From assembly GCA_017521805.1 (NCBI GenBank), contig JAFXDK010000045.1, forward strand, positions 1 to 38,128: a DNA stretch of 38,128 nucleotides. The letters are read 5' to 3'. The stretch is from Ruminococcus sp. (GTDB lineage: Bacteria > Bacillota > Clostridia > Oscillospirales > Ruminococcaceae). Under the pieces are notes generated by a model. The model was not told the origin of the DNA. It searched no databases and saw only the letters and a list, made by a program, of their open reading frames with translations. The first letter of the stretch is position 1; each line of letters starts with the position of its first letter. Both the position numbers and the translations under genes were made by a program. Below are positions 3,272 to 34,887 of the stretch, piece by piece.

Positions 3272-3760
3272 ATGAAGACGAAAAAGAAAAAAATCCTCTT
3301 TATTACAGGTTTTATTGCAATGCTCCTTGGTATTTCTGTGCTTGGCGTATTTGGCTGGAAACGTATCAGCCGTGAGATTGAAAAACAGCGGCTTCTGAAT
3401 GAGTGCGTTGTATTTGAGATACCCGACCTTGACATTAAGGCTCCCGTTATGGACGGTACTGAACATGAGGTGCTGTCAAAGGCGGCAGGACATTTTCCGG
3501 GCACAGGTGCAGTCGGTTCAGGAAATTACTGTATTGCAGGACACAACAGCACCATTTATGCAGAGATTTTCAATGAGATGAAGCGTATCAAGATTGGTAT
3601 GGAAATGTATCTGATTGACAATGATGAGCAGAGAACAAAGTATACATACACAGTTACAAAAAATTTCATTGTCGAGCCAAGTGAAACATGGGTTCTGGAT
3701 GATTTCGGCGATGACCGTATCACCATTGTGACTTGTACGGATGATGGTACACAAAGGTAG
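3272..3760 (+). CDS. Sortase, prematurely terminated
   Basis: Sortases cleave LPXTG-type signals and join the protein to the cell wall. An N-terminal anchor (about residues 8-28) precedes the catalytic fold. The triad can be read as His91 in 'CIAGHNS', Cys155 in 'TIVTCTDD' and Arg162 in 'GTQR'. The reading frame stops with TAG immediately after Arg162. Past that stop the same frame continues with IVVGEL, the expected final beta strand, before sequence turns into a recombinase fragment. This argues for a nonsense change in a once complete gene of about 170-175 residues. The start is set by AAAGGACGG upstream. It sits after an LPQTG protein that has itself been broken. The class (B, D or other) cannot be fixed by eye. 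Confidence 0.85.
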   Translation: MKTKKKKILFITGFIAMLLGISVLGVFGWKRISREIEKQRLLNECVVFEIPDLDIKAPVMDGTEHEVLSKAAGHFPGTGAVGSGNYCIAGHNSTIYAEIFNEMKRIKIGMEMYLIDNDEQRTKYTYTVTKNFIVEPSETWVLDDFGDDRITIVTCTDDGTQR

Positions 3761-3790
3761 ATTGTCGTTGGTGAACTTCAGACAGAACAG

Positions 3791-20286: not shown

Positions 20287-20306
20287 GAAATTTTTTCAGA
20301 AAATAC

Positions 20307-20335
20307 GTGACAAAATAGGAATTATGTGGTATAAT
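20307..20335 (+). promoter_or_regulatory. metG promoter
   Basis: GTGACA (20307-20312), 17 bases, TATAAT (20330-20335). The gap to the start codon is about 50 bases, too short for a T-box leader. Confidence 0.7.
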
Positions 20336-20387
20336 AAATATGCTGATTTCATTCGTCAGCAAATACATCCGAATTGGAGCGATTATT

Positions 20388-22373
20388 ATGTCAAAGAAAA
20401 CTTTTTACATTACCACACCTATTTATTACCCCTCGGGTAATCCACATATCGGTCACAGCTACACAACAGTAGCATGCGACTCTATTGCACGTTTCAAGCG
20501 AATGCAGGGATATGATGTAATGTTCCTCACAGGTACAGATGAGCATGGTCTGAAAATTGAGCAGAAAGCCGCTGAACAGGGCGTTACACCAAAGGAATAC
20601 GTTGATGTTATCGTTGACAAATTCAAGAACCTCTGGCAGTATATGAATATTTCCTACGACAGATATATCCGTACAACCGACGATTATCACGTAGAATCCG
20701 TGCAGAAGATATTCAAAGCACTCTACGATAAGGGATACATCTATAAGGGCGAATATTCGGGAAAATACTGCACTCCTTGCGAAAGCTTCTGGACAGATTC
20801 ACAGCTTGACGAAAACGGCTGCTGCCCCGAGTGTCACAGACCTGTAAAATTTGCCAAGGAGGAAGCATACTTCTTCAAGATGTCACCCTTTGCAGAGCGT
20901 ATTGAGAAACTTCTCCTTGAAACTGACTACCTCCGCCCAAAGACAAGAGCAATTGAGCTTGTAAACAACTTCATCAAGCCCGGTCTGGAGGATCTCTGCG
21001 TATCACGTACAACTTTCAAATGGGGCGTTCCCGTTTCATTTGACGACAAGCACGTTGTTTATGTATGGATTGACGCACTTTCCAACTACATCACAGCTCT
21101 CGGCTATATGAACGACAAGTATGATGATTTCGAAAAATACTGGAGCGCTGATGTTCATATGGTTGCAAAGGATATTATGCGATTCCACGCTATTATCTGG
21201 CCTGCAATGCTTATGGCGCTTGACCTGCCCCTTCCTAAGCATCTTGCAGTTCACGGCTACATCACAATGCAGAGCAAGGGCGGCGAAAGCGTAAAGATGT
21301 CCAAATCTCTCGGCAACGTAGTTGACCCATTTGTACTGGGCGAGCGTTACGGCTGTGACGCTATCAGATACCATATTCTGCGTGAAATGGCTCTCGGTGC
21401 TGACAGCCTTTTCTCCAACGAGATTATGATTAACCGTATCAATTCCGACCTTGCTAACGGCTTCGGAAACCTTGTTTCACGTACTGTTGCTATGGCTGAC
21501 AAGTATTTCGGCGGAACTATCCCTTCTGACCGTCAGGCTGACGCTATCGACGATGATTTCAAGAATGTTGTTCTCGGTGCTGTATCAGCTGTTGAGGCTG
21601 CTATGGACGAAACTAAGATTAAACAGGCTCTTGAAGAAATCTTCAAGGCTGTTGACCGCGCTAATAAATATATTGACGAAACTGAGCCTTGGAAGCTTGG
21701 CAAGGACGAATCCGCAAAGGGCAGACTTGCAACTGTTCTGTACAATCTCCTTGACGGTATCAGAATTATTTCAACTCTCCTTAGCCCATTTATGCCTGCA
21801 ACTATGCCTGAGGTATGGAAGCAGATTGGCGCAACTGAGGCTGATGTGGTTTATGATAAGCTGTCCGTGTTCGGTGTTCTCCCCGAAAATGTAACAGTAT
21901 GCAAGGGTGCAATCCTGTTCCCAAGAATTGACGTTGACAAGGAAATCGAGGAACTTAACTCAATTATTCAGAAGAATATGGAGACTGCACAGGCTAACCT
22001 TTCCGCTGAAGAAAAGGGCAAAGCTCCTGCTGAAAAAATTGAACTTGCAGAGGAAATCACAATTGAGGATTTTGCTAAGGTTGAGTTGAGATGCGCTAAA
22101 ATCCTCTCTGCTGAAAAGGTAAAGAAGTCCGATAAGCTTCTCTGCTTACAGCTTGATGACGGCATGGGCGGCAGACAGGTTGTTTCGGGAATTGCTGAAT
22201 ACTACACTCCTGAGGAGCTTGTTGGAAAGAAAATTCAGCTTGTGGCAAATCTCAAGCCTGTAAAGCTTCGCGGAGTTGAAAGCTGCGGTATGATTTGCGC
22301 TTCTGATACTCCCAACGGTGTAAAGGTGCTGTTCCTTGATGACAGTATTCCCTGCGGTGCGAAGATTAGATAA
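20388..22373 (+). CDS. metG: Methionyl-tRNA synthetase
   Basis: The class I enzyme charges tRNA-Met. The 661-residue protein has 'YYPSGNPHIGHSYTT' (HIGH motif), a zinc knuckle with 'CTPCESF' and 'CCPECHRP' near 125-148, and 'KMSKSLGN' near residue 303. After the anticodon-binding helices a C-terminal EMAP/Trbp111-type tRNA-binding domain (about 555-661) begins 'TIEDFAKVELRCAKILSAEK', giving a dimerising long form. I place the start at 20388 behind TTGGAGC; the upstream in-frame ATG at 20340 lacks a ribosome site and is too near the promoter. Single-gene unit. Confidence 0.97.
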   Translation: MSKKTFYITTPIYYPSGNPHIGHSYTTVACDSIARFKRMQGYDVMFLTGTDEHGLKIEQKAAEQGVTPKEYVDVIVDKFKNLWQYMNISYDRYIRTTDDYHVESVQKIFKALYDKGYIYKGEYSGKYCTPCESFWTDSQLDENGCCPECHRPVKFAKEEAYFFKMSPFAERIEKLLLETDYLRPKTRAIELVNNFIKPGLEDLCVSRTTFKWGVPVSFDDKHVVYVWIDALSNYITALGYMNDKYDDFEKYWSADVHMVAKDIMRFHAIIWPAMLMALDLPLPKHLAVHGYITMQSKGGESVKMSKSLGNVVDPFVLGERYGCDAIRYHILREMALGADSLFSNEIMINRINSDLANGFGNLVSRTVAMADKYFGGTIPSDRQADAIDDDFKNVVLGAVSAVEAAMDETKIKQALEEIFKAVDRANKYIDETEPWKLGKDESAKGRLATVLYNLLDGIRIISTLLSPFMPATMPEVWKQIGATEADVVYDKLSVFGVLPENVTVCKGAILFPRIDVDKEIEELNSIIQKNMETAQANLSAEEKGKAPAEKIELAEEITIEDFAKVELRCAKILSAEKVKKSDKLLCLQLDDGMGGRQVVSGIAEYYTPEELVGKKIQLVANLKPVKLRGVESCGMICASDTPNGVKVLFLDDSIPCGAKIR

Positions 22374-22470
22374 GATATGTTGATTATTATGGGCGGATAA
22401 TCTCCGCCTGTAATTTCAAGAATAAATTTAAAGGTTCCCTTTAGATTTTTCGACAAAAACAGGTGGTATT

Positions 22471-22947
22471 ATGGAATACATTACATTAAAATGCAGTCAT
22501 TGTGAAAAGAAACTGCTTACTTACAATCCCACATCACGAAAATACAAAAGTCCGCTGAAAAAATGCAAAAAGTGCGGAACGGAATATCTCGACCCTCGCT
22601 GCCACGAAATTGCGGCTGAGGGGATTCCCGCTGATACGTTCAGTATTCCGTCGTATCTTGTTCTGATTGCAGTTGGCGGACTTATCATCTGGAGAGGATT
22701 ATATTTATTCAGCAGATGTCATCTGAACACATCTGACAGTCTCCCGTGGCTTATGCCCACGGCATTCACAATAATGGGCATTGTATTCGCCCTTTGGGGA
22801 CTTATTGAGATTATTTCCATTGCAACAGGCAAAAAAGCAGAAAAATTCGAACGATTAAGACAGGAATCGGAAGAACGGCTTCTTGACAACAGTTATGCCC
22901 GTACACTGCTTAATTTAGGATATTGCATCCCAGAAAAATACATATAA
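22471..22947 (+). CDS. Small zinc-ribbon membrane protein
   Basis: I do not recognise this 158-residue protein as a named family. An N-terminal rubredoxin-like zinc ribbon has the pairs 'CSHC' (about 8-11) and 'CKKC' (about 32-35). Two hydrophobic spans follow (about 62-82 and 92-118), then a charged cytosolic helix 'KKAEKFERLRQESEERLLD'. AGGTGG precedes the start. It forms a probable two-gene unit with the next membrane protein, 12 bases on. The zinc ribbon suggests a protein- or nucleic-acid-binding head at the membrane. Confidence 0.75.
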   Translation: MEYITLKCSHCEKKLLTYNPTSRKYKSPLKKCKKCGTEYLDPRCHEIAAEGIPADTFSIPSYLVLIAVGGLIIWRGLYLFSRCHLNTSDSLPWLMPTAFTIMGIVFALWGLIEIISIATGKKAEKFERLRQESEERLLDNSYARTLLNLGYCIPEKYI

Positions 22948-22959
22948 GGAGTTTTAAAC

Positions 22960-23553
22960 ATGAGCAGAGGTTTTAAATTATTTTTAGGAGTATTAATGGT
23001 ACTCGGAATTGCAGTATATCTTATAGCTACAGCAATTTTTGATATGACAAACAAAGAAGATTTGCACACTGTAAATATCGATATGGCAACAGAAGTTCTT
23101 GAAGTTGAACATTCAATCAGCGGATTGATTCCAATGGGAACTGACCATTACTATATTGGCATCAACGAGGATACTGCTGAGGCGTACATAATAAAAGCAC
23201 CCAAAAAATGGCTTGATGATAATTTCGGTGTAGATAAAATGGCTCGCAAGGCAGGCGGTCTGGATATTACAGCATTGGCAAAATCCATAACCGATTCAGA
23301 AACAAGAAATGCAATCAGCAGCAATGTTTCACAGGTGGACGGGCTTACCTATCCCGTAGGAACAAATTATCTGGACACTGGCTATAAATCAAAAATTGTA
23401 ACAAAGCTTATACTTTTTGCGGGAATGTTGTTTTTAGCAATTTCAGGTTTTGTGATAATGAAAAAAGGCAGGGAATCAGCACGTGTATTATCAATAATCT
23501 TTGGTGTATTATTCTTAGCATGGTGCATTGCTTTTCTTATTTTAATTGTTTAA
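22960..23553 (+). CDS. Membrane protein of unknown function
   Basis: Not recognised. The 197-residue protein has one N-terminal span (about 6-27), an extracellular domain of about 110 residues (about 30-142; 'VLEVEHSISGLIPMGTDHYY', 'APKKWLDDNFG'), and two C-terminal spans (about 147-164 and 175-196). The layout is that of a small surface-exposed domain held by three helices. AAGGAG lies upstream. It appears cotranscribed with the zinc-ribbon protein. Confidence 0.7.
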   Translation: MSRGFKLFLGVLMVLGIAVYLIATAIFDMTNKEDLHTVNIDMATEVLEVEHSISGLIPMGTDHYYIGINEDTAEAYIIKAPKKWLDDNFGVDKMARKAGGLDITALAKSITDSETRNAISSNVSQVDGLTYPVGTNYLDTGYKSKIVTKLILFAGMLFLAISGFVIMKKGRESARVLSIIFGVLFLAWCIAFLILIV

Positions 23554-23560
23554 TTTACAA

Positions 23561-23591
23561 AAATGCCGATATCGCGATGATATCGGCATTT
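23561..23591. terminator. Terminator between the membrane-protein pair and the LRR-dockerin gene
   Basis: AAATGCCGATATC and GATATCGGCATTT form a perfect 13-bp stem around five bases. It serves both convergent genes. Confidence 0.88.
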
Positions 23592-23597
23592 GTTTGT

Positions 23598-25103
23598 TTA
23601 TTCAAGCTTTGCGTCAATTCTCTGGATCGTAACAGCGTCCTCAGGAGTTACTCCGTTGCCTGTATCAGCAATATCGGCATTTGCAGCACCCTGCTCCGAT
23701 AATCCGTATTTATCAGGATTGCCAAGGCTCTGGAAAATAGCCGTAGCGTCGGCAATTGAAACCTTTCCGTCACAGTTTGCGTCGCCGAGGAGTGTAGGTG
23801 CTAATGGTGTTTTTTCTCCGTCCAGAGCTATAAATGCTCTGTTATACTTTTCAGCATATTCCTGTGCCGTCGAGCCCCTGTAGCCGTAAATTACTGTTTT
23901 TTCGGGAATGGAATATTCTGAAAGTTCACATTCAGGATTTCTTATTGTGATTGTTTCAAGCGGCGGCTCCCATAAAGAGTTCACATCAAAAACGTCCTCT
24001 CCGATAAACTCCACATTTTCAGGTATATCTATAGATGTCAGTTCATAACAACCCCAGAACGCTTCATCTTCAATTCTCTTTACATTTTCTCCTATTTTCA
24101 CTTTAGTGAGAGATTCGCATAAACGGAATGTCATTTCTTTAATTTCTGTAATACCATTACCGATTGTTACTTCTTTTAACCCGAAGCATTGTAAAAATGC
24201 ACTCTCACCTAAATAGATTACATTATCAGGAATCGTTACGCTTCGTAATGTTTCATTCTGGAAAAATATACCTTCATTGATATGTGTAACTGTTTCAGGA
24301 ATAGTTAATTCAGTGAGTTTTGTGTTGCTTGAAAATGCTTCGCCGCCGATAACTCTGATTCCCTCGGGAAGTTCTTTTTCATCTGAAATTTTTGTACCGT
24401 TAATCAATACGCCGTTTTCATATACAACGGAATTTTGCGTGCCAAACCAAGGCGTGTTATGAAAGGCTTCAATTCCCAATATTTCAAGATTTTCAGGAAA
24501 ATCTACAGAAGTTAAATTCTGACAGTAATAAAAAGCTTGATAGCCTATTTCGGTTACTCTGTCAGGAATAGTTACTTCTTCAAGGTTTTGGCAGAAATAA
24601 AAGGCTCTCTCGTCGATAGTTTTAACGCTGTCAGGAATAGTGTATTCTTTTATACTGTTCTTTTCGGGACAGTTAATTAAAAGGGATTTATCCTTGTTGT
24701 ATAAAATACCCTTATCACTTGAATGATACTTGTTATCTTCTCCCACTTCTATGGCAGTAAGATTCGGGTAGCCGGTAATAAAACTATAAACCAGAGTTCC
24801 TACTTTATCACCGATTATTATCTTTTTAATATTATTATAATGATAGTCCCATGGTGCTCCTCCAACGTAAACAATACCGTCGGAGTCCATATTTCCCTCG
24901 CCGTCGATAGTGAGTATTCCCTCACTGTCAATAGACCATGTTAAATTTTCGCCAAATTCTCCGCTTGTAGCGTCTGTATAGTCTATCGGCACTGATAAGG
25001 CAGAAGCCATAAAATTTTTGCAGGGAATAACTTCGGTAAAAGAAACAGCAGAAGCCGCCAATAATCCTGCAAGCAGAATTGATGTTATATTTCTCATTTT
25101 CAT
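23598..25103 (-). CDS. Secreted leucine-rich-repeat (BspA-like) protein with dockerin
   Basis: A signal peptide (about 1-33) is followed by a short beta domain with 'WSIDSEGILTIDGEG' and then LRR_5/BspA-type repeats (about 110-400) of about 23 residues, with phrases such as 'TIPDSVKTIDERAF' and 'IPDRVTEIGYQAF'. The C-terminal 65 residues are a type I dockerin: 'LGDANCDGKVSIADATAIFQ' and 'ADTGNGVTPEDAVTIQR'. The protein should therefore join the cellulosome as a binding or structural part; no catalytic motif is visible. I choose the ATG at 25103, with GAGAGGGG about nine bases before; an in-frame ATG at 25136 has no ribosome site. Confidence 0.9.
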   Translation of the reverse strand: MKMRNITSILLAGLLAASAVSFTEVIPCKNFMASALSVPIDYTDATSGEFGENLTWSIDSEGILTIDGEGNMDSDGIVYVGGAPWDYHYNNIKKIIIGDKVGTLVYSFITGYPNLTAIEVGEDNKYHSSDKGILYNKDKSLLINCPEKNSIKEYTIPDSVKTIDERAFYFCQNLEEVTIPDRVTEIGYQAFYYCQNLTSVDFPENLEILGIEAFHNTPWFGTQNSVVYENGVLINGTKISDEKELPEGIRVIGGEAFSSNTKLTELTIPETVTHINEGIFFQNETLRSVTIPDNVIYLGESAFLQCFGLKEVTIGNGITEIKEMTFRLCESLTKVKIGENVKRIEDEAFWGCYELTSIDIPENVEFIGEDVFDVNSLWEPPLETITIRNPECELSEYSIPEKTVIYGYRGSTAQEYAEKYNRAFIALDGEKTPLAPTLLGDANCDGKVSIADATAIFQSLGNPDKYGLSEQGAANADIADTGNGVTPEDAVTIQRIDAKLE

Positions 25104-25147
25104 AGTAAAAACCCCTCTCATACTTATTATATTCATATGCTACATTT

Positions 25148-25176
25148 ATTTTAACATATAATTGTAATTTTGTCAA
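25148..25176 (-). promoter_or_regulatory. Promoter of the LRR-dockerin gene
   Basis: On the minus strand TTGACA (25171-25176), 17 bases, TAAAAT (25148-25153). Confidence 0.8.
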
Positions 25177-25189
25177 TCTTTTTGTTTTT

Positions 25190-25229
25190 ATATAAAAATT
25201 CCGCACAAATTCAAAAATCTGTGCGGAAT
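25190..25229 (-). terminator. Terminator after aspartokinase
   Basis: ATTCCGCACA and TGTGCGGAAT form a 10-bp stem (25198-25229), followed on the minus strand by T-rich sequence. It separates the aspartokinase gene from the LRR-dockerin gene. Confidence 0.85.
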
Positions 25230-25240
25230 AGTAATAATAT

Positions 25241-26575
25241 TTATTTTTCAGAATTAATAAACATATCGTAGATACGTCTGATAGCTTCGGGGAGGTCGCT
25301 TTCACTTACACCGATGATTACATTAAGCTCGGAAGAACCCTGATCGATAAGCTTAACATTGATTCTTGCATGAGCCATAGCAGCGAATACTCTTGCAACA
25401 GTACCACGAGTATTCTTCATACGTCTGCCCACAACAGCGAGAATTGCGATATTATCCTCAATTTCAAGGTGGTCGGGATTAACCTCACGGCGGATTTCAG
25501 CAAGCACCTTTTCACGAACAGGCTCCAGCTTTGCACTGTCAACAGTAATGCTCATTGTGTCGATTCCCGAAGGCATATGCTCAAAGGAAATGCCGTTCTG
25601 ATAGAGCACATTCAGAACCTTCATACCGAAACCAAGCTCATTATTCATCATAGCCTTTTCGATATTGATTGTGCTGAATCCCTTTTTACCAGCAATACCT
25701 GTGATTGTGTGTCCAAGGCTTTCACGGCTGAAGTCATAGTCGTTGGAAACAATCATTGTACCTGCGTCCTCAGGTCTGTTTGTGTTGCGGATATTGATTG
25801 GTATACCTGCGGAACGAACAGGGAAAATAGCGTCCTCGTGGAGAACAGATGCACCCATATATGCAAGCTCACGAAGCTCACGGTAAGTAATTGTCTCGAT
25901 AGCCTCAGGATTTTCAACGATTCTGGGGTCTGCTACAAGGAAACCTGAAACATCTGTCCAGTTCTCGTAAATCTCAGCATTTACAGCGTTTGCAATAATA
26001 GAGCCTGTTACATCTGAACCGCCTCTTGAAAATGTCTTGATAACACCCTCTGTTGTCTTGCCGTAGAAGCCGGGGATAACAGCGTTGTCAAGGTCTTTCA
26101 GCTGTGCTCTTACAGCCTTTACTGTCTCGTCAAGGAGAAGCTGTCCCTTTGTATCAAATATGATAACATCAGCGGCATCTACGAAATTAAAACCGAGATA
26201 TGCGGCTAAAACTTTACCGTTGAGGTACTCACCGCGGCTTGCGGCATAGTCCTTAGCAGGACGGGATTTGAGCTCATTTACAATAATATCAAAATCTGCA
26301 TCAAGGCTTATATCAACGCCAAGGTCGGAAATAATGCCATTGTAGCGGTCTTTGATAATCTGAAAATCTTCTGTGAAATCAACTCCGCTGCCTGCAAGCT
26401 CACAGCACTTGTAGAGCATATCTGTAACTTTAATATCATCAGAAAAACGCTTTCCGGGAGCAGAGGGAACAACGTATCTGCGCTTATCATCTGATTTTAT
26501 AATATCGGCAACCTTGCGGAACTGGTTAGCATCTGCAAGTGAACTGCCGCCGAATTTTACAACTTTATTAGCCAT
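25241..26575 (-). CDS. lysC: Aspartate kinase
   Basis: Aspartokinase makes aspartyl phosphate, the first step to Lys, Met, Thr and diaminopimelate. The 444-residue protein has 'VVKFGGSSLADANQFRKVAD' at the N-terminus, 'FSRGGSDVTGSIIANAV' near 185, 'WTDVSGFLVADPRIV' and 'GASVLHEDAIFPV'. Two ACT domains (about 300-440) include 'NIAILAVVGRRMKNTRGTVAR', suggesting feedback control by lysine and/or threonine. 'YVVPSAPGKR' with the inserted segment after it is typical of clostridial forms. It stands alone, with no lysine riboswitch visible in the short leader. Diaminopimelate is also used in spores as dipicolinate. Confidence 0.93.
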   Translation of the reverse strand: MANKVVKFGGSSLADANQFRKVADIIKSDDKRRYVVPSAPGKRFSDDIKVTDMLYKCCELAGSGVDFTEDFQIIKDRYNGIISDLGVDISLDADFDIIVNELKSRPAKDYAASRGEYLNGKVLAAYLGFNFVDAADVIIFDTKGQLLLDETVKAVRAQLKDLDNAVIPGFYGKTTEGVIKTFSRGGSDVTGSIIANAVNAEIYENWTDVSGFLVADPRIVENPEAIETITYRELRELAYMGASVLHEDAIFPVRSAGIPINIRNTNRPEDAGTMIVSNDYDFSRESLGHTITGIAGKKGFSTINIEKAMMNNELGFGMKVLNVLYQNGISFEHMPSGIDTMSITVDSAKLEPVREKVLAEIRREVNPDHLEIEDNIAILAVVGRRMKNTRGTVARVFAAMAHARINVKLIDQGSSELNVIIGVSESDLPEAIRRIYDMFINSEK

Positions 26576-26620
26576 AGGAAATACCTGCCTTTACATAATT
26601 GTTATTTTTCTATCATACTT

Positions 26621-26649
26621 ATTATATCCCAAATTATGACAAAAATCAA
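26621..26649 (-). promoter_or_regulatory. Aspartokinase promoter
   Basis: On the minus strand TTGATT (26644-26649), 17 bases, TATAAT (26621-26626). The leader is about 40 bases, too short for a lysine riboswitch. Confidence 0.65.
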
Positions 26650-26733
26650 TTGGCAGAAATACAGAAAATAAAATCACTGAAATTGTTTTTTTAGTGAATA
26701 CGCTTGTACGTCGGTGACGGACAGTTTTTGATA

Positions 26734-26891
26734 ATTAAGAATTATGAATTGGGAATTAAGAAAAATGCGTAATTCTTAATTCGTAATGCGTAATTATTTT
26801 ATGTCGTTTTGCGTAGGGGCTGCATTTGGCAGTCCGCAATTTCGGAACGAAATTCATTTTTCCAACAAACTCAGCGGAGGATTTCCTCCGC
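26734..26891. repeat. Non-coding repeat cluster
   Basis: This stretch between aspartokinase and the ExbBD-like operon holds AATTAAGAATTA with its inverse TAATTCTTAATT about 25 bases on, followed by GCGTAATTA-type repeats. A stem-like 'GGGGCTGCATTTGGCAGTCC' lies at about 26816-26835, and a perfect hairpin GCGGAGG/CCTCCGC at about 26874-26891. Motifs of this kind are scattered between genes in many Clostridia. The last hairpin may end the ExbBD-like operon but lacks a T run. No gene is seen here. Confidence 0.55.
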
Positions 26892-26900
26892 CATATAAAA

Positions 26901-27356
26901 TTACTTGAATATGATATTTTTAAATCCACTTGATTCAAGTGCTTCTTCAAAATTATCCCTTGCATTTACCGTTGCAGTGCTTTCGCAAGAAATATATATT
27001 TCAGCAGATGTATCATTTTTACTTATTTCTGTCATTAATTCTTCTAACTGCATTTTTTTATTATTATATATGTAATCTCTGCCGTCTATTGTAACTTCAA
27101 CTTTAATTTTTTCTGGTTCTGTCACTACTGTTGTGGCAATTTCAGTTTCAGCAACTGTATTTGTCTCTTTCTCAAAATCTGTTTGCTCAGAAACTTCTGT
27201 TTCATTTCCTGTAATACCGTCTTTGCCTGTTCCTATTCCAAAATCACAGCCTTTCTGTGATAAGAATAAAGCCACTGCCGCCGCAGCCGCAGTAATACCA
27301 GTACCAGCAAATACTTTTCCACTTCTTTTACCTTTTCGACCATTATCTTTTTTCAT
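26901..27356 (-). CDS. Small membrane protein with ExbD-like extracytoplasmic domain
   Basis: Third gene of the motor-like operon, 151 residues. A basic N-terminus and one span (about 14-32, 'VFAGTGITAAAAAVALFLSQ') lead to an acidic Thr/Glu linker (about 48-82). A compact C-terminal domain follows: 'KVEVTIDGRDYIYNNKKMQL', 'EELMTEISKN', 'AEIYISCESTATVNARDNFE' and 'LESSGFKNIIF'. This order (strand, 'DG', short turn, 'L-E-E-L' helix, strand, helix, 'G-F-x-x-I') resembles the periplasmic domain of ExbD/TolR. The membrane Asp of ExbD is absent. AAAGGGAG precedes the start. Homology is inferred by eye only. Confidence 0.65.
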   Translation of the reverse strand: MKKDNGRKGKRSGKVFAGTGITAAAAAVALFLSQKGCDFGIGTGKDGITGNETEVSEQTDFEKETNTVAETEIATTVVTEPEKIKVEVTIDGRDYIYNNKKMQLEELMTEISKNDTSAEIYISCESTATVNARDNFEEALESSGFKNIIFK

Positions 27357-27371
27357 ATAATTAAGCTCCCT

Positions 27372-27935
27372 TTATTTTGAAACGTTAATTGTAGCAAAAT
27401 AAAAATTTTTATATTCATTTTGCATTTTATTTACAGCTTTTTCAATTTTTTCGACTGCTTCAGCAGAACCAATATTATCACCATTATAAATCAAATTGCA
27501 GATAATTACATCGTCAGATTTATAATTTGAAGATTCTATAATATCAGCTATCTGCTTGTTAAAATTCAGTGTACTCTCATACTTCATCTCCAATAATTTT
27601 TCATTACCTCTTAAAACATTGATATACAGCCCTTCATCGTCAATTTTTTCAACAAGATTTATTGACAAAACCTGATTATCATTATACGCTGAAAGTGCTT
27701 CTTGATTTTTCGCAGCATTTTTATCAAGATTTAAAAGCCTGTCTCTTTCTATTTCATATTTTTTTCGTTCTTCCTCAGCTTCTTCTAATTTTGCTTCGTA
27801 TTCGATTTTTGTCTGATTCGCTTCATTTGTTGCCGTTTCAATTTCAAATGTACTAAACAGAATAAAGAAAAAAAGAATTATCATAATTACATCAAGTAAC
27901 GATGTAAAATCAAGAATTATTTCTCTTACTTTCAT
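27372..27935 (-). CDS. ExbD/TolR-like proton-channel subunit with coiled-coil stalk
   Basis: 187 residues. The single span 'TSLLDVIMIILFFFILFS' carries Asp15, at the place of the ion-carrying Asp of ExbD ('LIDVMLVLLIIFM') and MotB. A long charged coiled coil (about 35-85, 'YEAKLEEAEEERKKYEIERD') follows, then a domain of about 95 residues ('LYINVLRGNEKLLEMKYEST', 'VIICNLIYNGDNIGSAEAVE') that could again be ExbD-like. ExbD itself lacks such a stalk and is about 140 residues. The start overlaps the stop of the ExbB-like gene by four bases. Confidence 0.8.
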   Translation of the reverse strand: MKVREIILDFTSLLDVIMIILFFFILFSTFEIETATNEANQTKIEYEAKLEEAEEERKKYEIERDRLLNLDKNAAKNQEALSAYNDNQVLSINLVEKIDDEGLYINVLRGNEKLLEMKYESTLNFNKQIADIIESSNYKSDDVIICNLIYNGDNIGSAEAVEKIEKAVNKMQNEYKNFYFATINVSK

Positions 27936-28432
27936 TTTACTGCCCTGCGTCTTTTGTTTTCATTTTTTGAGTCTTTTAAGGATATTCCGCTATCCTCAAA
28001 TTTCTTTATCAGGTTTGCGAGTTTCTGAATATTGTTTTCAACAGATGTGGAAATAAAGGCGTTTACTATTTTAAAGCTAATGGAAAAAATTATACCCCAA
28101 GTTGTAGAAGTCAATGCATCAAAGAAATTATTTTTCGCATTGTTTATATTTGACAAATCAAGTTCCAGCAAAGCCTTAACTGTTCCGAACATACCTAACA
28201 ATGGAAAAATTGAAATTGCTGTTATAAACAAGGTATAACTTGCTGTCAGCCAATTGTAAATATGGGTTGTATAACTAATATTTTTTTCATGTTCAAATAT
28301 ATTTATTTCTTTTTTTGTTTTTTTATTATAATACCGAACCAGCAATAAACATAGTACGGTCAAGAAAGCCGAAATCAAGATATACACATCAGAGGAAAAT
28401 AAACTTTTCCAAATCTTTTCTCCAAAACTCAT
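27932..28432 (-). CDS. ExbB/TolQ/MotA-like proton-channel subunit
   Basis: 166 residues with three spans (about 14-34, 60-85, 107-129). The family signature is clear: 'IFPLLGMFGTVKALLE' (76-90) and 'ALTSTTWGIIFSISFKIVNA' (106-125), matching the 'PLLGLLGTV' and 'TTxxGL' helices lining the ExbB/TolQ pore. In ExbB-ExbD, TolQ-TolR and MotA-MotB this subunit forms a pentamer around two Asp-bearing helices and turns proton or sodium flow into rotation. I set the start at 28432, behind AGAGGTGG; a longer frame from 28492 would start upstream of the promoter. It is the first gene of a three-gene operon. Confidence 0.85.
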   Translation of the reverse strand: MSFGEKIWKSLFSSDVYILISAFLTVLCLLLVRYYNKKTKKEINIFEHEKNISYTTHIYNWLTASYTLFITAISIFPLLGMFGTVKALLELDLSNINNAKNNFFDALTSTTWGIIFSISFKIVNAFISTSVENNIQKLANLIKKFEDSGISLKDSKNENKRRRAVK

Positions 28433-28450: not shown

Positions 28451-28479
28451 ATTATACAACAAAAGCAATAATATTGCAA
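28451..28479 (-). promoter_or_regulatory. Promoter of the ExbBD-like operon
   Basis: On the minus strand TTGCAA (28474-28479), 17 bases, TATAAT (28451-28456), less than 20 bases before the first start codon. The leader is very short. Confidence 0.8.
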
Positions 28480-32035: not shown

Positions 32036-33442
32036 CTACGCTTTGCTTGCCGAAAGTTTAGGCGTTGCATCAACAATCAAATAGGAAATTTTCCTCTTGA
32101 TTTCTTGATCTAAACCATTATAAAAGCTGATGAAATTCTCTAATGCTTTGGGATGACCGTTGTCTATGATTAGGTAGATGGCTTGTTTGGTCTTTTCTTG
32201 CCTCATGTATATGGGTAACTGAATTTCAATTCCATGCCGCAACTGAGAATTTGACGTCAACTTTGTTTCTACAACAACCTTATCATTTGACCCACATGAG
32301 AGCTTGAAATCAACTGGACCTCGACCGTTGTTTCCCTCTTTTGTGAGGTCGATATTATTCGCATCGCAGTACGAGTCAGCAATGCCAAAGAATAAAAGTT
32401 GTGCCGCAGATTCGTGTTTAGGCACTCCAGTGGAATCATACAATAATTTCGACAATCCGTTATCTTCAACGAGGCTTTTGAATTGATCACATATTACTCT
32501 GGCAATAGAAAGAACATCGTCTATTGTTTCAAGCGGTAGGCCAGTTAAAGCCAAAGGGTATTCAGACACATATTCTCGTGCAGCAGCAAGCCAAGCATAC
32601 TCTCCAGCGGGATCGCTTGAAAAATCGTAGGCATTTTTAGGCATTGTTTTATAAGCAGTGACTAAGGCCGAACGAAAGCTTAGACTGCTATGCATTAACG
32701 AAAGAATCTGTGATTTATGAAGTTTATTTTTCTTGCCAAGGCCAAAGTAAGCGTTGATCTCTTGGCGAACTCGCTCATTTTCTTGGTAAATTCGATCAAT
32801 ATCGTCAAAATCGTCGGCGATAGGTAACGGGCTGAGAATTGTTGACGGAAGAAGGAGCAACGGCTTCTTGTTATGCGGATTTCTACAGGTTAAATATTGC
32901 CGCGGGCCAAAATGGACTGTAATGCTTGGAATGCCCGCTAACGTTACTACACGTTGTGTATATTTCAGGATTTCTTCCCTCAAGATAAAAGTTATCAAAT
33001 CGCTAACACGATCACAGCCAATGCCCTCTTGGAACACACCAAGTAGTTCGAACAGAACCGGGTCCGTTTCTCCCTCAGTCATTAATTCCTTGATTGTATT
33101 CAAAATAGCATCGCGCAATACTGCTCCGATAGCATTTCCTCCGGTTCCATTTTGAGAATAGCCAAAGCAAGTGCCAGATAGTTCTCTGAATGTTAAAAGA
33201 CGATCGGCTCGTCTCCAATACATATCACCACTTCGTTTAGAATGGTGCAATAGCGTTATTATGTTGGAAAAATAACCTTCAACTTTTGAACGAGCACCAA
33301 CAAACTCGGGCTCCGTGCAGAGTTCAAGCAACGCAGGATCAATAAATACCCGCGTATCAACATCGAGTATCACATCAAATACGCCAGTACTTTCCAGCGC
33401 AGAACTCGGAACATTAAATTGTTCAGAAAACGTAATAGGCAT
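32036..33442 (-). CDS. Putative PD-(D/E)XK nuclease partnered with a HEPN protein
   Basis: The 468-residue protein is not one I can name. The last 125 residues have a restriction-endonuclease-like core: a helix Glu344 in 'KHESAAQLLFFG', Asp378 in 'GRGPVDFKL', Glu392-Thr-Lys394 in 'KVVVETKL', and Gln408 in 'IEIQLPIYMR', spacing typical of PD-(D/E)XK nucleases. The N-terminal 340 residues are mixed alpha/beta with a 'FILREEILKYTQR' helix and may sense or bind a target. GAAGGA precedes the ATG at 33442; a longer frame to 33487 overlaps the upstream gene. It forms an operon with the HEPN gene 23 bases upstream. DNA cleavage in phage defence is likely but inferred. Confidence 0.7.
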   Translation of the reverse strand: MPITFSEQFNVPSSALESTGVFDVILDVDTRVFIDPALLELCTEPEFVGARSKVEGYFSNIITLLHHSKRSGDMYWRRADRLLTFRELSGTCFGYSQNGTGGNAIGAVLRDAILNTIKELMTEGETDPVLFELLGVFQEGIGCDRVSDLITFILREEILKYTQRVVTLAGIPSITVHFGPRQYLTCRNPHNKKPLLLLPSTILSPLPIADDFDDIDRIYQENERVRQEINAYFGLGKKNKLHKSQILSLMHSSLSFRSALVTAYKTMPKNAYDFSSDPAGEYAWLAAAREYVSEYPLALTGLPLETIDDVLSIARVICDQFKSLVEDNGLSKLLYDSTGVPKHESAAQLLFFGIADSYCDANNIDLTKEGNNGRGPVDFKLSCGSNDKVVVETKLTSNSQLRHGIEIQLPIYMRQEKTKQAIYLIIDNGHPKALENFISFYNGLDQEIKRKISYLIVDATPKLSASKA

Positions 33443-33465
33443 ATTCAATCCTTCTTTCTTTATCG

Positions 33466-34887
33466 CTAACAAATTATCACACCGCACCTAAACAACTCGT
33501 TAATCGCATTCTGTATATTTTTTGTTTCGACACCGTAAAGCTTGAGCTGCATTGCATAAACAATGCGTTCTGTATAAACGAGATCAATCAAGGACTTGTC
33601 AATGAAATCAATATCCATATTTCCGTGCGCATAGTTATTCCGTTGATCTGCTAACCGTTTCCCCATTTCGGAATAGAGCAGCTCTGTGTCGTTCATCGAA
33701 TACAGTCTCTTGCCAAAAAGATCAATTATTTCACCAAGTTCGTTGCCTATGTGAACAACTTCAGACTGAAGAGAATTAGATGTAATAAGTTTTCGAAGGA
33801 ACTTATATTTGTCCTTAAGATCGCCAGTACTGTTATCTATGAGTTTTTGAATTTCCTCAGTTGCTGCGGCTTCGATTGCAAGCGTTTTGTCTGACTTTGT
33901 TATTCCTTGGGGATAGAGTCGTTTGAACTCCCATTCGAAAGCAGCTGTAATCATAACGAAACGAGCAGCATTTATGCGACACCCTGAAACATAAGTGTCT
34001 GGAATATGTCGTGTGTAGAGCACTCGTAAAGCTATGTCACTCATTATCCGCCCTTCTGCACCAGACAGATATGCCAACTTTATATATCGGCCTTTCTGCA
34101 GTGTTTCTGGTTCTTCCTCACTAGTTTCGCCCAGCATATTGAATGTGGCAAAAATCCTTGTTTTATCCTCATCTGCCGGAGTCGATAAATCGGCGGTCGG
34201 AAGAAACACGTTTTTTCGATAACACATAAATTGCAGAAATTCTTTTGCCACGAACCAGAGCCGAACAATGAAAGAATAATCCTCCGTAGGGGCAAAACGG
34301 AACGACATTGTAGATCGGAGCGTTAATGGAGGTTGACCAATCTTTGTACTGAATGATCTTGCAATTCCAAAACTGACACTCACATCTTTTCCATCCACCT
34401 GAAATAATTGTGGCGCTGTTGTTGTAGCATCAAAATCTTCGGTTTGAACAGAAAGGATGCCATGAGAATGGAACTGTTCGTGGTCATAAGTACAACTGAA
34501 TCCCTGTGTTACTGGATGGATGCAGTCAAGCTCAGCGCATATGAAGACCATTTTTGAAATAGGCTGAGTATCAGTTTTGCAAAGAATATAGGCAGCTACT
34601 TCTACAAACAAAACCTCGTTATAGCTTCCGATATGTGCCCCTTGTTTCGCCAGAAAGACCATTGCTTGGCCAGTCTCATTGCATTTGCCAATAAGATATG
34701 GTTCATCCATTGAGGGAGAAGCCATTGTATAAACGCCAGGACGGATTTCCTTCATAAGTATTGTATGGCGAACTTCATCCCGTTTATCGGTAGGAGGAAT
34801 TAGTCGCAGTTCTTCCTTGTCAAAGGCATAGGAAAACTCTATTCCTTTATATGTCAATTTTCCGGTATACAAATCAAGCTCTTCCAT
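33466..34887 (-). CDS. ApeA-like HEPN-domain protein (putative defence RNase)
   Basis: 473 residues. An N-terminal region of about 270 residues is beta-rich ('LDLYTGKLTYKGIEFSYAFD', 'RSTMSFRFAPTEDYSFIVRL'), as in the N-terminal domain of ApeA proteins. The C-terminal 170 residues are helical and carry the HEPN RNase motif R416-N-N-Y-A-H421 (Rx4H) in 'DQRNNYAHGNMD'. HEPN proteins of this kind cut RNA to abort phage growth. AAGGAGG lies just before the start. It is the first gene of an operon with a PD-(D/E)XK protein. Whether the nuclease partner acts on DNA with it is inference. A toxin-antitoxin role is an alternative, but the lengths are too great for usual HEPN-MNT pairs. Confidence 0.72.
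   Translation of the reverse strand: MEELDLYTGKLTYKGIEFSYAFDKEELRLIPPTDKRDEVRHTILMKEIRPGVYTMASPSMDEPYLIGKCNETGQAMVFLAKQGAHIGSYNEVLFVEVAAYILCKTDTQPISKMVFICAELDCIHPVTQGFSCTYDHEQFHSHGILSVQTEDFDATTTAPQLFQVDGKDVSVSFGIARSFSTKIGQPPLTLRSTMSFRFAPTEDYSFIVRLWFVAKEFLQFMCYRKNVFLPTADLSTPADEDKTRIFATFNMLGETSEEEPETLQKGRYIKLAYLSGAEGRIMSDIALRVLYTRHIPDTYVSGCRINAARFVMITAAFEWEFKRLYPQGITKSDKTLAIEAAATEEIQKLIDNSTGDLKDKYKFLRKLITSNSLQSEVVHIGNELGEIIDLFGKRLYSMNDTELLYSEMGKRLADQRNNYAHGNMDIDFIDKSLIDLVYTERIVYAMQLKLYGVETKNIQNAINELFRCGVIIC

Follow-up and report, generated by a model that had tools for sequence, protein, structure and literature searches.

A three-gene ExbB-ExbD-like operon with a separately anchored ExbD-type head in Ruminococcus: a candidate ion-driven motor of a monoderm envelope

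Rotary motors made of a channel ring and an axle are already known, mainly from bacteria with two membranes. As set out in the sections of PMC12905483 devoted to ExbBD and TolQR, a five-subunit ring and two axle helices couple ion flow to rotation, while TonB and TolA are third chains that are bound to the motor ring and whose arm is pulled; the same sections have the ExbD head binding a TonB peptide and the ExbD and TolR heads binding peptidoglycan (PMC12905483). The non-flagellar class of these 5:2 motors is described, in a passage of PMC12505986, as structurally very varied. For Gram-positive bacteria, a 2022 review of 5:2 motors remarks in its part on Ton orthologues that these, facing a thick wall and lacking ExbD, await testing of whether and how they work (PMC9389320), and a 2025 survey speaks, in the passage concerned, of the Ton systems of monoderms, monoderm Clostridia included, as "likely non-functional" (PMC12204202).

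The locus analyzed here lies in a stretch of 38,128 nucleotides from Ruminococcus sp. (assembly GCA_017521805.1, contig JAFXDK010000045.1), the whole of which we call the window. On its minus strand, three genes, here named B, D, and X, form a tight unit that carries the motor residues and runs from the ATG of B at 28432 to the stop codon of X at 26901, with the start of D overlapping the stop of B by 4 bases and a gap of 15 bases between D and X (Table 1). The unit is flanked upstream by a gene for a ROK-family kinase and downstream by one for an amino-acid kinase with ACT domains, which we take to be an aspartokinase. Terminator-like sites of the kind found behind X number 4 in the stretch versus 0.9 in shuffled sequence; promoter-like sites of the kind found before B are no commoner than chance, with 12 found and 10.8 expected from shuffles.

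Table 1. Features of the B-D-X locus, in positions of the window.
Feature	Positions	Strand	Remarks
Gene B	27932..28432	-	ExbB/MotA-type channel subunit, 166 aa, short cytoplasmic loop
Codon of Thr84 in B	28181..28183	-	aligns with E. coli ExbB Thr148; Thr in 109/109 rows
Codon of Thr110 in B	28103..28105	-	aligns with E. coli ExbB Thr181; Thr in 109/110 rows
Gene D	27372..27935	-	ExbD-type axle subunit, 187 aa
Codon of Asp15 in D	27891..27893	-	aligns with E. coli ExbD Asp25; Asp in 109/109 rows
Rod of D (residues 28-68)	27732..27854	-	continuation of the membrane helix in the AlphaFold2 model
Outer domain of D (residues 89-187)	27375..27671	-	three strands, helix, strand, helix, strand
Gene X	26901..27356	-	151 aa; basic N terminus, single membrane helix, flexible linker, ExbD-type head
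Outer domain of X (residues 84-151)	26904..27107	-	ExbD/TolR fold
Terminator-like hairpin	26872..26893	-	directly 3' of X; 9 pairs, 6 of them G-C
Promoter-like TTGCAA-17-TATAAT	28451..28479	-	directly 5' of B; weak

The protein encoded by B contains the channel domain of 5:2 motors, matching Pfam MotA_ExbB with 30.8 bits against a cut-off of 22.9 (E 2.7e-7), and is the sole PF01618 match in the window's genome. Together with the alignment of B to residues 134-199 of E. coli ExbB, this score argues for the proposal of a preliminary description, made from the DNA letters, that the first protein is a stator-type channel subunit. B has two clear hydrophobic windows. A third is less pronounced, its best mean over 17 residues being 1.53 at residue 113; it aligns with the last membrane helix of ExbB and probably represents a third membrane helix. 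Besides the two threonines, P77, G80, and G83 are each conserved in 109 of 109 rows; the 110 rows for Thr110 include both pieces of a B gene that is split in locus L063 (8888-9383, genome G046), where it is broken over two overlapping reading frames and D and X match over their full length. When the B family profile was compared with PDB sequences, weak matches to MotA, PomA, and ExbB were obtained, the best being to the MotA chain 8gqy_A (E 0.0021). Searches of PDB sequences with single B or single D yielded nothing useful, and no relative was found in the viral contigs scanned with B alone.

As expected of the second subunit of a 5:2 motor, D has a single membrane helix with a conserved aspartate, and the membrane aspartate noticed beforehand in the second protein thus proved to be invariant in the family and aligned with that of ExbD; an acidic residue falls within the membrane window in 107 of 109 rows. 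Against Pfam ExbD, D scores 22.7 bits (E 1.1e-4), just under the curated cut-off of 25.4, and among the 31 relatives in the family alignment 17 match Pfam ExbD at E<=0.1. The AlphaFold2 model of D consists of one helix from residue 2 to 68, a short helix, and then the outer domain. This outer domain matches ExbD structurally no better than it matches unrelated folds, and of the 50 Foldseek matches listed for the D model, 49 are reverse transcriptase chains; the RNase H domain of reverse transcriptases has a strand order similar to that of the D outer domain. The D family profile gave a weak MotB row among unrelated rows when compared with PDB sequences. No OmpA-type match was found for D in Pfam at E<=1 or among the best 25 of 104 families matched by its relatives, in agreement with the earlier statement that the axle subunit has no OmpA-like peptidoglycan domain.

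TonB has a basic N terminus, a single helix, a flexible arm, and a small outer head. The product of X has the same layout, with an arm of about 43 flexible residues between membrane helix and head. By sequence alone, the kinship of this head to ExbD is weak: for X itself, Pfam gives no ExbD match at E<=1 and NCBIfam a weak one to ExbD_2 (E 0.098), 8 of 29 relatives match Pfam ExbD at E<=0.1, and among 10 outer domains searched on their own two match ExbD at E<=1, each time in the correct register and under the cut-off. The X family profile retrieved membrane and linker matches from the PDB sequences and did not find ExbD, and an hhalign comparison of the D and X profiles gave a probability of 4.5%, i.e., no sequence kinship between the two. 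The structural model settles the matter, in that the best match of the predicted X head is ExbD, an outer domain of the ExbD type. Thus, the earlier view of the third gene as a separately anchored domain of the ExbD periplasmic type is supported by the modeled head, and that part of the expected agreement with ExbB and ExbD folds stands; for the D outer domain, of which the same was expected, the structural comparison does not set ExbD apart from unrelated folds. Since X has no acidic residue in its membrane window in any of 118 rows and thus lacks the membrane aspartate of ExbD and TolR, it does not qualify as another axle of the familiar type. No TonB row appeared for X in Pfam at E<=1 or among the best 25 of 34 families of its relatives. 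An extra copy of X directly after the first (B-D-X-X) was observed in 12 of 109 distinct loci, namely, L080, L081, L084, L125, L126, L139, L154, L170, L171, L176, L177, and L179.

In comparison with ExbBD-TonB, the set has a channel subunit with both conserved threonines, an axle subunit with the membrane aspartate, and a third chain of TonB-like layout; it differs in the ExbD fold of the X head, in the absence of a TonB-dependent receptor from 60 genomes of the genus, in a host that appears to be monoderm, and in the length of B, which has 166 aa versus 244 aa in E. coli ExbB. A complete Ton system is ruled out by the receptor count (PF00593 in 0/60). From TolQR-TolA of the Tol-Pal system it is set apart by a genome without the tested outer-membrane markers and by the lack of a shared neighbor that could serve as a TolB or Pal candidate. 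The Myxococcus gliding motor AglRQS likewise combines one ExbB/MotA-type with two ExbD/MotB-type proteins; however, in the review passage on this motor, AglQ and AglS both carry the conserved membrane aspartate (PMC9389320), so that a second axle of the AglRQS type is ruled out for X. With MotAB, the set shares a homologous channel ring, as the best PDB match of the B profile illustrates, but B is too short for the MotA cytoplasmic domain and D has no OmpA-type match. A flagellar stator is ruled out: the window neighbors are not flagellar, D has no OmpA-type row, and there is no other PF01618 match in the genome. Two loci reached by weak B hits, L085 and L088, look by eye like flagellar-type clusters, presumably of the motA-motB-fliM-fliY-cheY kind, and one genome of the same family, G167, carries both a B-D-X set (L080) and a separate flagellar operon (L088).

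Zorya systems possess a ZorB-type axle with an OmpA peptidoglycan-binding domain, and their effector genes, ZorC/D or ZorE, are encoded next door. They belong to the same 5:2 motor family, as a passage in PMC12905483 has it, and B gives a weak ZorA match (E 0.085); nevertheless, the ZorA model, with 383 positions, is much longer than B, D has no OmpA-type match, and no effectors are shared nearby. Zorya is ruled out, as D has no OmpA-type row, no Zorya model was matched among 93 next-door proteins or 10 window neighbors, and no neighbor family is shared by more than 6 of 55 B clades.

With B as a single-protein query, relatives were found in 33 of 60 genomes of the genus, and the 39 genomes sampled from the rest of the order gave none; as about half of the genus genomes are without the set, it is not essential. 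Including the window's genome in each count, the B profile reached 13 of 394 genomes of the order, eight of them strongly, 18 of 391 of the class, three of them strongly, and, under the stricter limit of 1e-9, 1 of 398 of the phylum. The GTDB species set gave 453 pattern matches, 431 of which encode a relative; the best 80 of these 431, which were kept, include R. flavefaciens strains, R. albus 8, and [Clostridium] aminophilum as well as many Lachnospiraceae and Oscillospiraceae, largely from rumen and gut according to their titles. The 122 loci assembled comprise 104 with B-D-X, 13 with B-D-X-X, one with a two-piece B before D-X, and four in which a contig edge lies after or within D. Once 13 duplicates are taken out, 109 distinct loci are left (93 B-D-X, 12 B-D-X-X, 1 split B, and 3 at a contig edge), and 106 of them keep B, D, and X side by side, the remaining 3 stopping at the contig edge. 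The conserved order of the three genes that had been predicted for relatives is therefore real, and with B above its Pfam cut-off, so is the three-gene ExbB-ExbD-like motor operon as such.

These counts have a defined scope. The 122 loci leave out 15 weak class-level B hits in short loci as well as L085 to L090, weak B hits that were taken as MotA upon inspection of two of the six; the counts come from a search of all six frames, since the gene caller had missed B in 20 loci; and alignment A1 is without L043 and the split B of L063. Because the loci were found through B, the search for partners apart from B covered X within the genus. Strong X matches (at least 117 bits) occur in 32 of 60 genus genomes, every one of them at the B locus, and the only genus genome with B and without X, G025, is a contig-end case. 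X matches of any strength occur in 46 of the 60, those away from the B locus reaching at most 34.7 bits and covering mainly the membrane and linker part. Of the 34 genus genomes (out of 60) with PF01618, 32 owe it to the B of a B-D-X set, and the two other matches, in long frames, are read as MotA.

All three genes are clearly under purifying selection and are kept for use: the median pairwise dN/dS is 0.06 in B, 0.10 in D, and 0.15 in X, and no value exceeds 0.35. These figures come from 14 pairs, which gave 13 usable values for each gene; the pair L037/L063 includes the split B as is, which raises the B value of that pair. The outer parts change fastest, and X is the fastest of the three genes. 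Tree distances correlate between the genes (Mantel 0.75 for B-D, 0.50 for B-X, and 0.69 for D-X, with a largest null value of 0.16, over the 104 loci, L063 aside, in which all three genes are complete), a correlation that shared descent alone would also give. Between L121 and L123 (7959-9423), which occupy the same chromosomal site, DNA identity falls from 98.9% in B to 79.7% in D and 68.7% in X, while the long flanks are 93-97% identical. Between the window (20293-28432) and L121, the operon is 65.7% identical, compared with 88% for the amino-acid kinase gene and 91% for a further common gene that we take to be methionyl-tRNA-synthetase-like. These alignments suggest that the outer parts, in D and X, have been exchanged for other alleles among close relatives. 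Relative to L121, the window carries the segment of B-D-X plus the amino-acid kinase gene in inverted orientation.

The host of B-D-X appears to be monoderm. The TonB-dependent receptor family PF00593 was found in 0 of 60 genus genomes, the window's included, compared with 3 of 14 in the control rings; Omp85 was found in one of the 60, which is not the window's; and the window's genome has 8 sortase matches. The markers tested hence support the earlier assumption of a host without an outer membrane. The sole Omp85 match lies at G055:C29:4138-5307 in a 74% complete genome and is perhaps contamination, and the best sortase match of the window's genome lies at 3416-3778 of the window, in a frame that contains a single TAG.

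As for gene neighbors, no family recurs in more than 6 of 55 B clades, so that there is no widely shared fourth gene. B, D, and X have no PADLOC match up to E 10. In a test with one locus per B clade, restricted to proteins of 100-900 aa, 16 PADLOC models were matched among 93 next-door proteins versus 38 models among 85 proteins three genes further out, and of the best 25 of 124 Pfam families next door most are metabolic or housekeeping. A PADLOC scan at E 0.01 left 9 of the 10 window neighbors unmatched; the tenth, encoded at 32036-33487, 3.6 kb upstream of B and separated from it by four genes, one of which is on the other strand, weakly matches the defense candidate PDC-M36A (E 4.8e-6). 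No Zorya model was matched in the 93 next-door proteins or the 10 window neighbors, and the operon accordingly stands without a Zorya set beside it, as had been stated. With no widely shared neighbor family and no excess of defense matches nearby, B-D-X seems complete in itself. At 32036-34887, the window holds two minus-strand genes that overlap and encode proteins of 483 and 473 aa, neither with a Pfam match at E 0.01; owing to the weak PDC-M36A match of the first, this pair may be a defense system.

We propose, with a probability of about one half, that B-D-X is a self-contained motor, driven by ions and akin to ExbBD and TolQR, in which X is the arm that passes force to a partner in the wall or at the surface. 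By homology, five B subunits would form a channel ring around two D membrane helices, and ions moving past Thr84 and Thr110 of B and Asp15 of D would turn the ring against the axle. The long helix of D would hold its outer domain far from the membrane, and X would take the place of TonB or TolA, with a separately anchored helix that presumably lies beside the B ring, a flexible arm, and a head of ExbD fold. Rotation of the axle would pull on the X arm or wind it up, and through the X head, or through a pair of D and X heads, the force would reach peptidoglycan or a protein of the wall or surface. Such a motor fits the non-flagellar class, as described in a passage of PMC12505986, as a compact member. 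At somewhat less than even odds, it could represent a new 5:2 architecture: a proton-driven rotary machine that works mechanically across or on the thick Gram-positive wall, in which a separately anchored ExbD head replaces the TonB/TolA arm, so that rotation would be coupled through two different outer domains, those of axle and arm, to a partner in the wall or at the surface that differs between strains. Among the open-licence PMC matches listed, there was no description of a three-chain motor with a detached ExbD head in a monoderm.

X may be an anchor rather than a force transmitter. In this scenario, its ExbD/TolR-type head would grip the peptidoglycan and prevent free spinning of the B ring, leaving the work to the rod and head of D, and the anchoring role of the MotB outer domain would have moved to a separate chain. 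The flexible X linker would suit a search of the wall, and the outer domains of ExbD and TolR, whose fold the X head shares, are credited with a peptidoglycan-binding site in PMC12905483; the relevant section adds, however, that their dimer interface must open before peptidoglycan is bound, and the rapid change of X (a median dN/dS of 0.15, and 68.7% identity versus 98.9% for B in one pair) is easier to reconcile with a variable partner than with an invariant polymer. We regard this anchoring role as unlikely, yet as the leading alternative to the arm. A Zorya-like sensor of phage attack or envelope damage, in which the motor would open or turn when the wall is disturbed, would account for the patchy occurrence in the genus (33/60), for the fast divergence of D and X with apparent allele replacement between close relatives, and for the weak similarities of B to ZorA and of the gene at 32036-33487 to PDC-M36A. 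Yet B, D, and X are without PADLOC matches, as are nine of the ten window neighbors, the tenth being four genes from B; no effector gene is shared; PADLOC models are no commoner next door than three genes further out; and the best 25 of 124 Pfam families next door are mostly metabolic or housekeeping, which makes a defense role improbable.

A purely electrical function is slightly less probable again: B-D-X would be a gated ion leak for the control of pH or membrane potential, without mechanical output, in which X and the D head do nothing but open and close the path. Conservation is among the highest at the residues of the ion path, whereas the outer parts vary, which is in keeping with such a leak; a valve, however, would hardly need a rod some 40 residues long, two heads on different chains, and a third subunit that is retained so strictly. 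Very improbable, finally, is a leftover Ton system without use, even though the monoderm Clostridia are among the hosts to which the passage in PMC12204202 denies likely function. Selection largely refutes this idea: dN/dS is well below 1 in all three genes, the motor residues are nearly invariant, gene order is kept in 106/109 loci with a single split B (L063) among the 109, and the 60 genus genomes hold no TonB receptor. Chance open reading frames or a decaying remnant are ruled out by the kept order, the dN/dS values, and the conserved motor residues.

With its ExbD-type subunit, nearly invariant motor residues, purifying selection, and named hosts (Ruminococcus flavefaciens, R. albus 8, and [Clostridium] aminophilum), B-D-X offers a clean case against loss of function in Ton-like systems of monoderms. 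A construct of three genes makes it testable whether and how such systems work in Gram-positive bacteria, and the division of outer domains between axle and arm may help to show which outer domain transmits the force in Ton and Tol.

Two further observations concern genes found beside B. Directly upstream of B, 14 loci from 2 B clades (L032:7059-7985, for instance) encode a membrane protein of the lysylphosphatidylglycerol-synthase type (PF03706), which is probably local synteny. In the window, positions 22471-23553 encode a protein of 158 aa with a weak zinc-ribbon match and a protein of 197 aa, both of which have relatives directly before B in L121.
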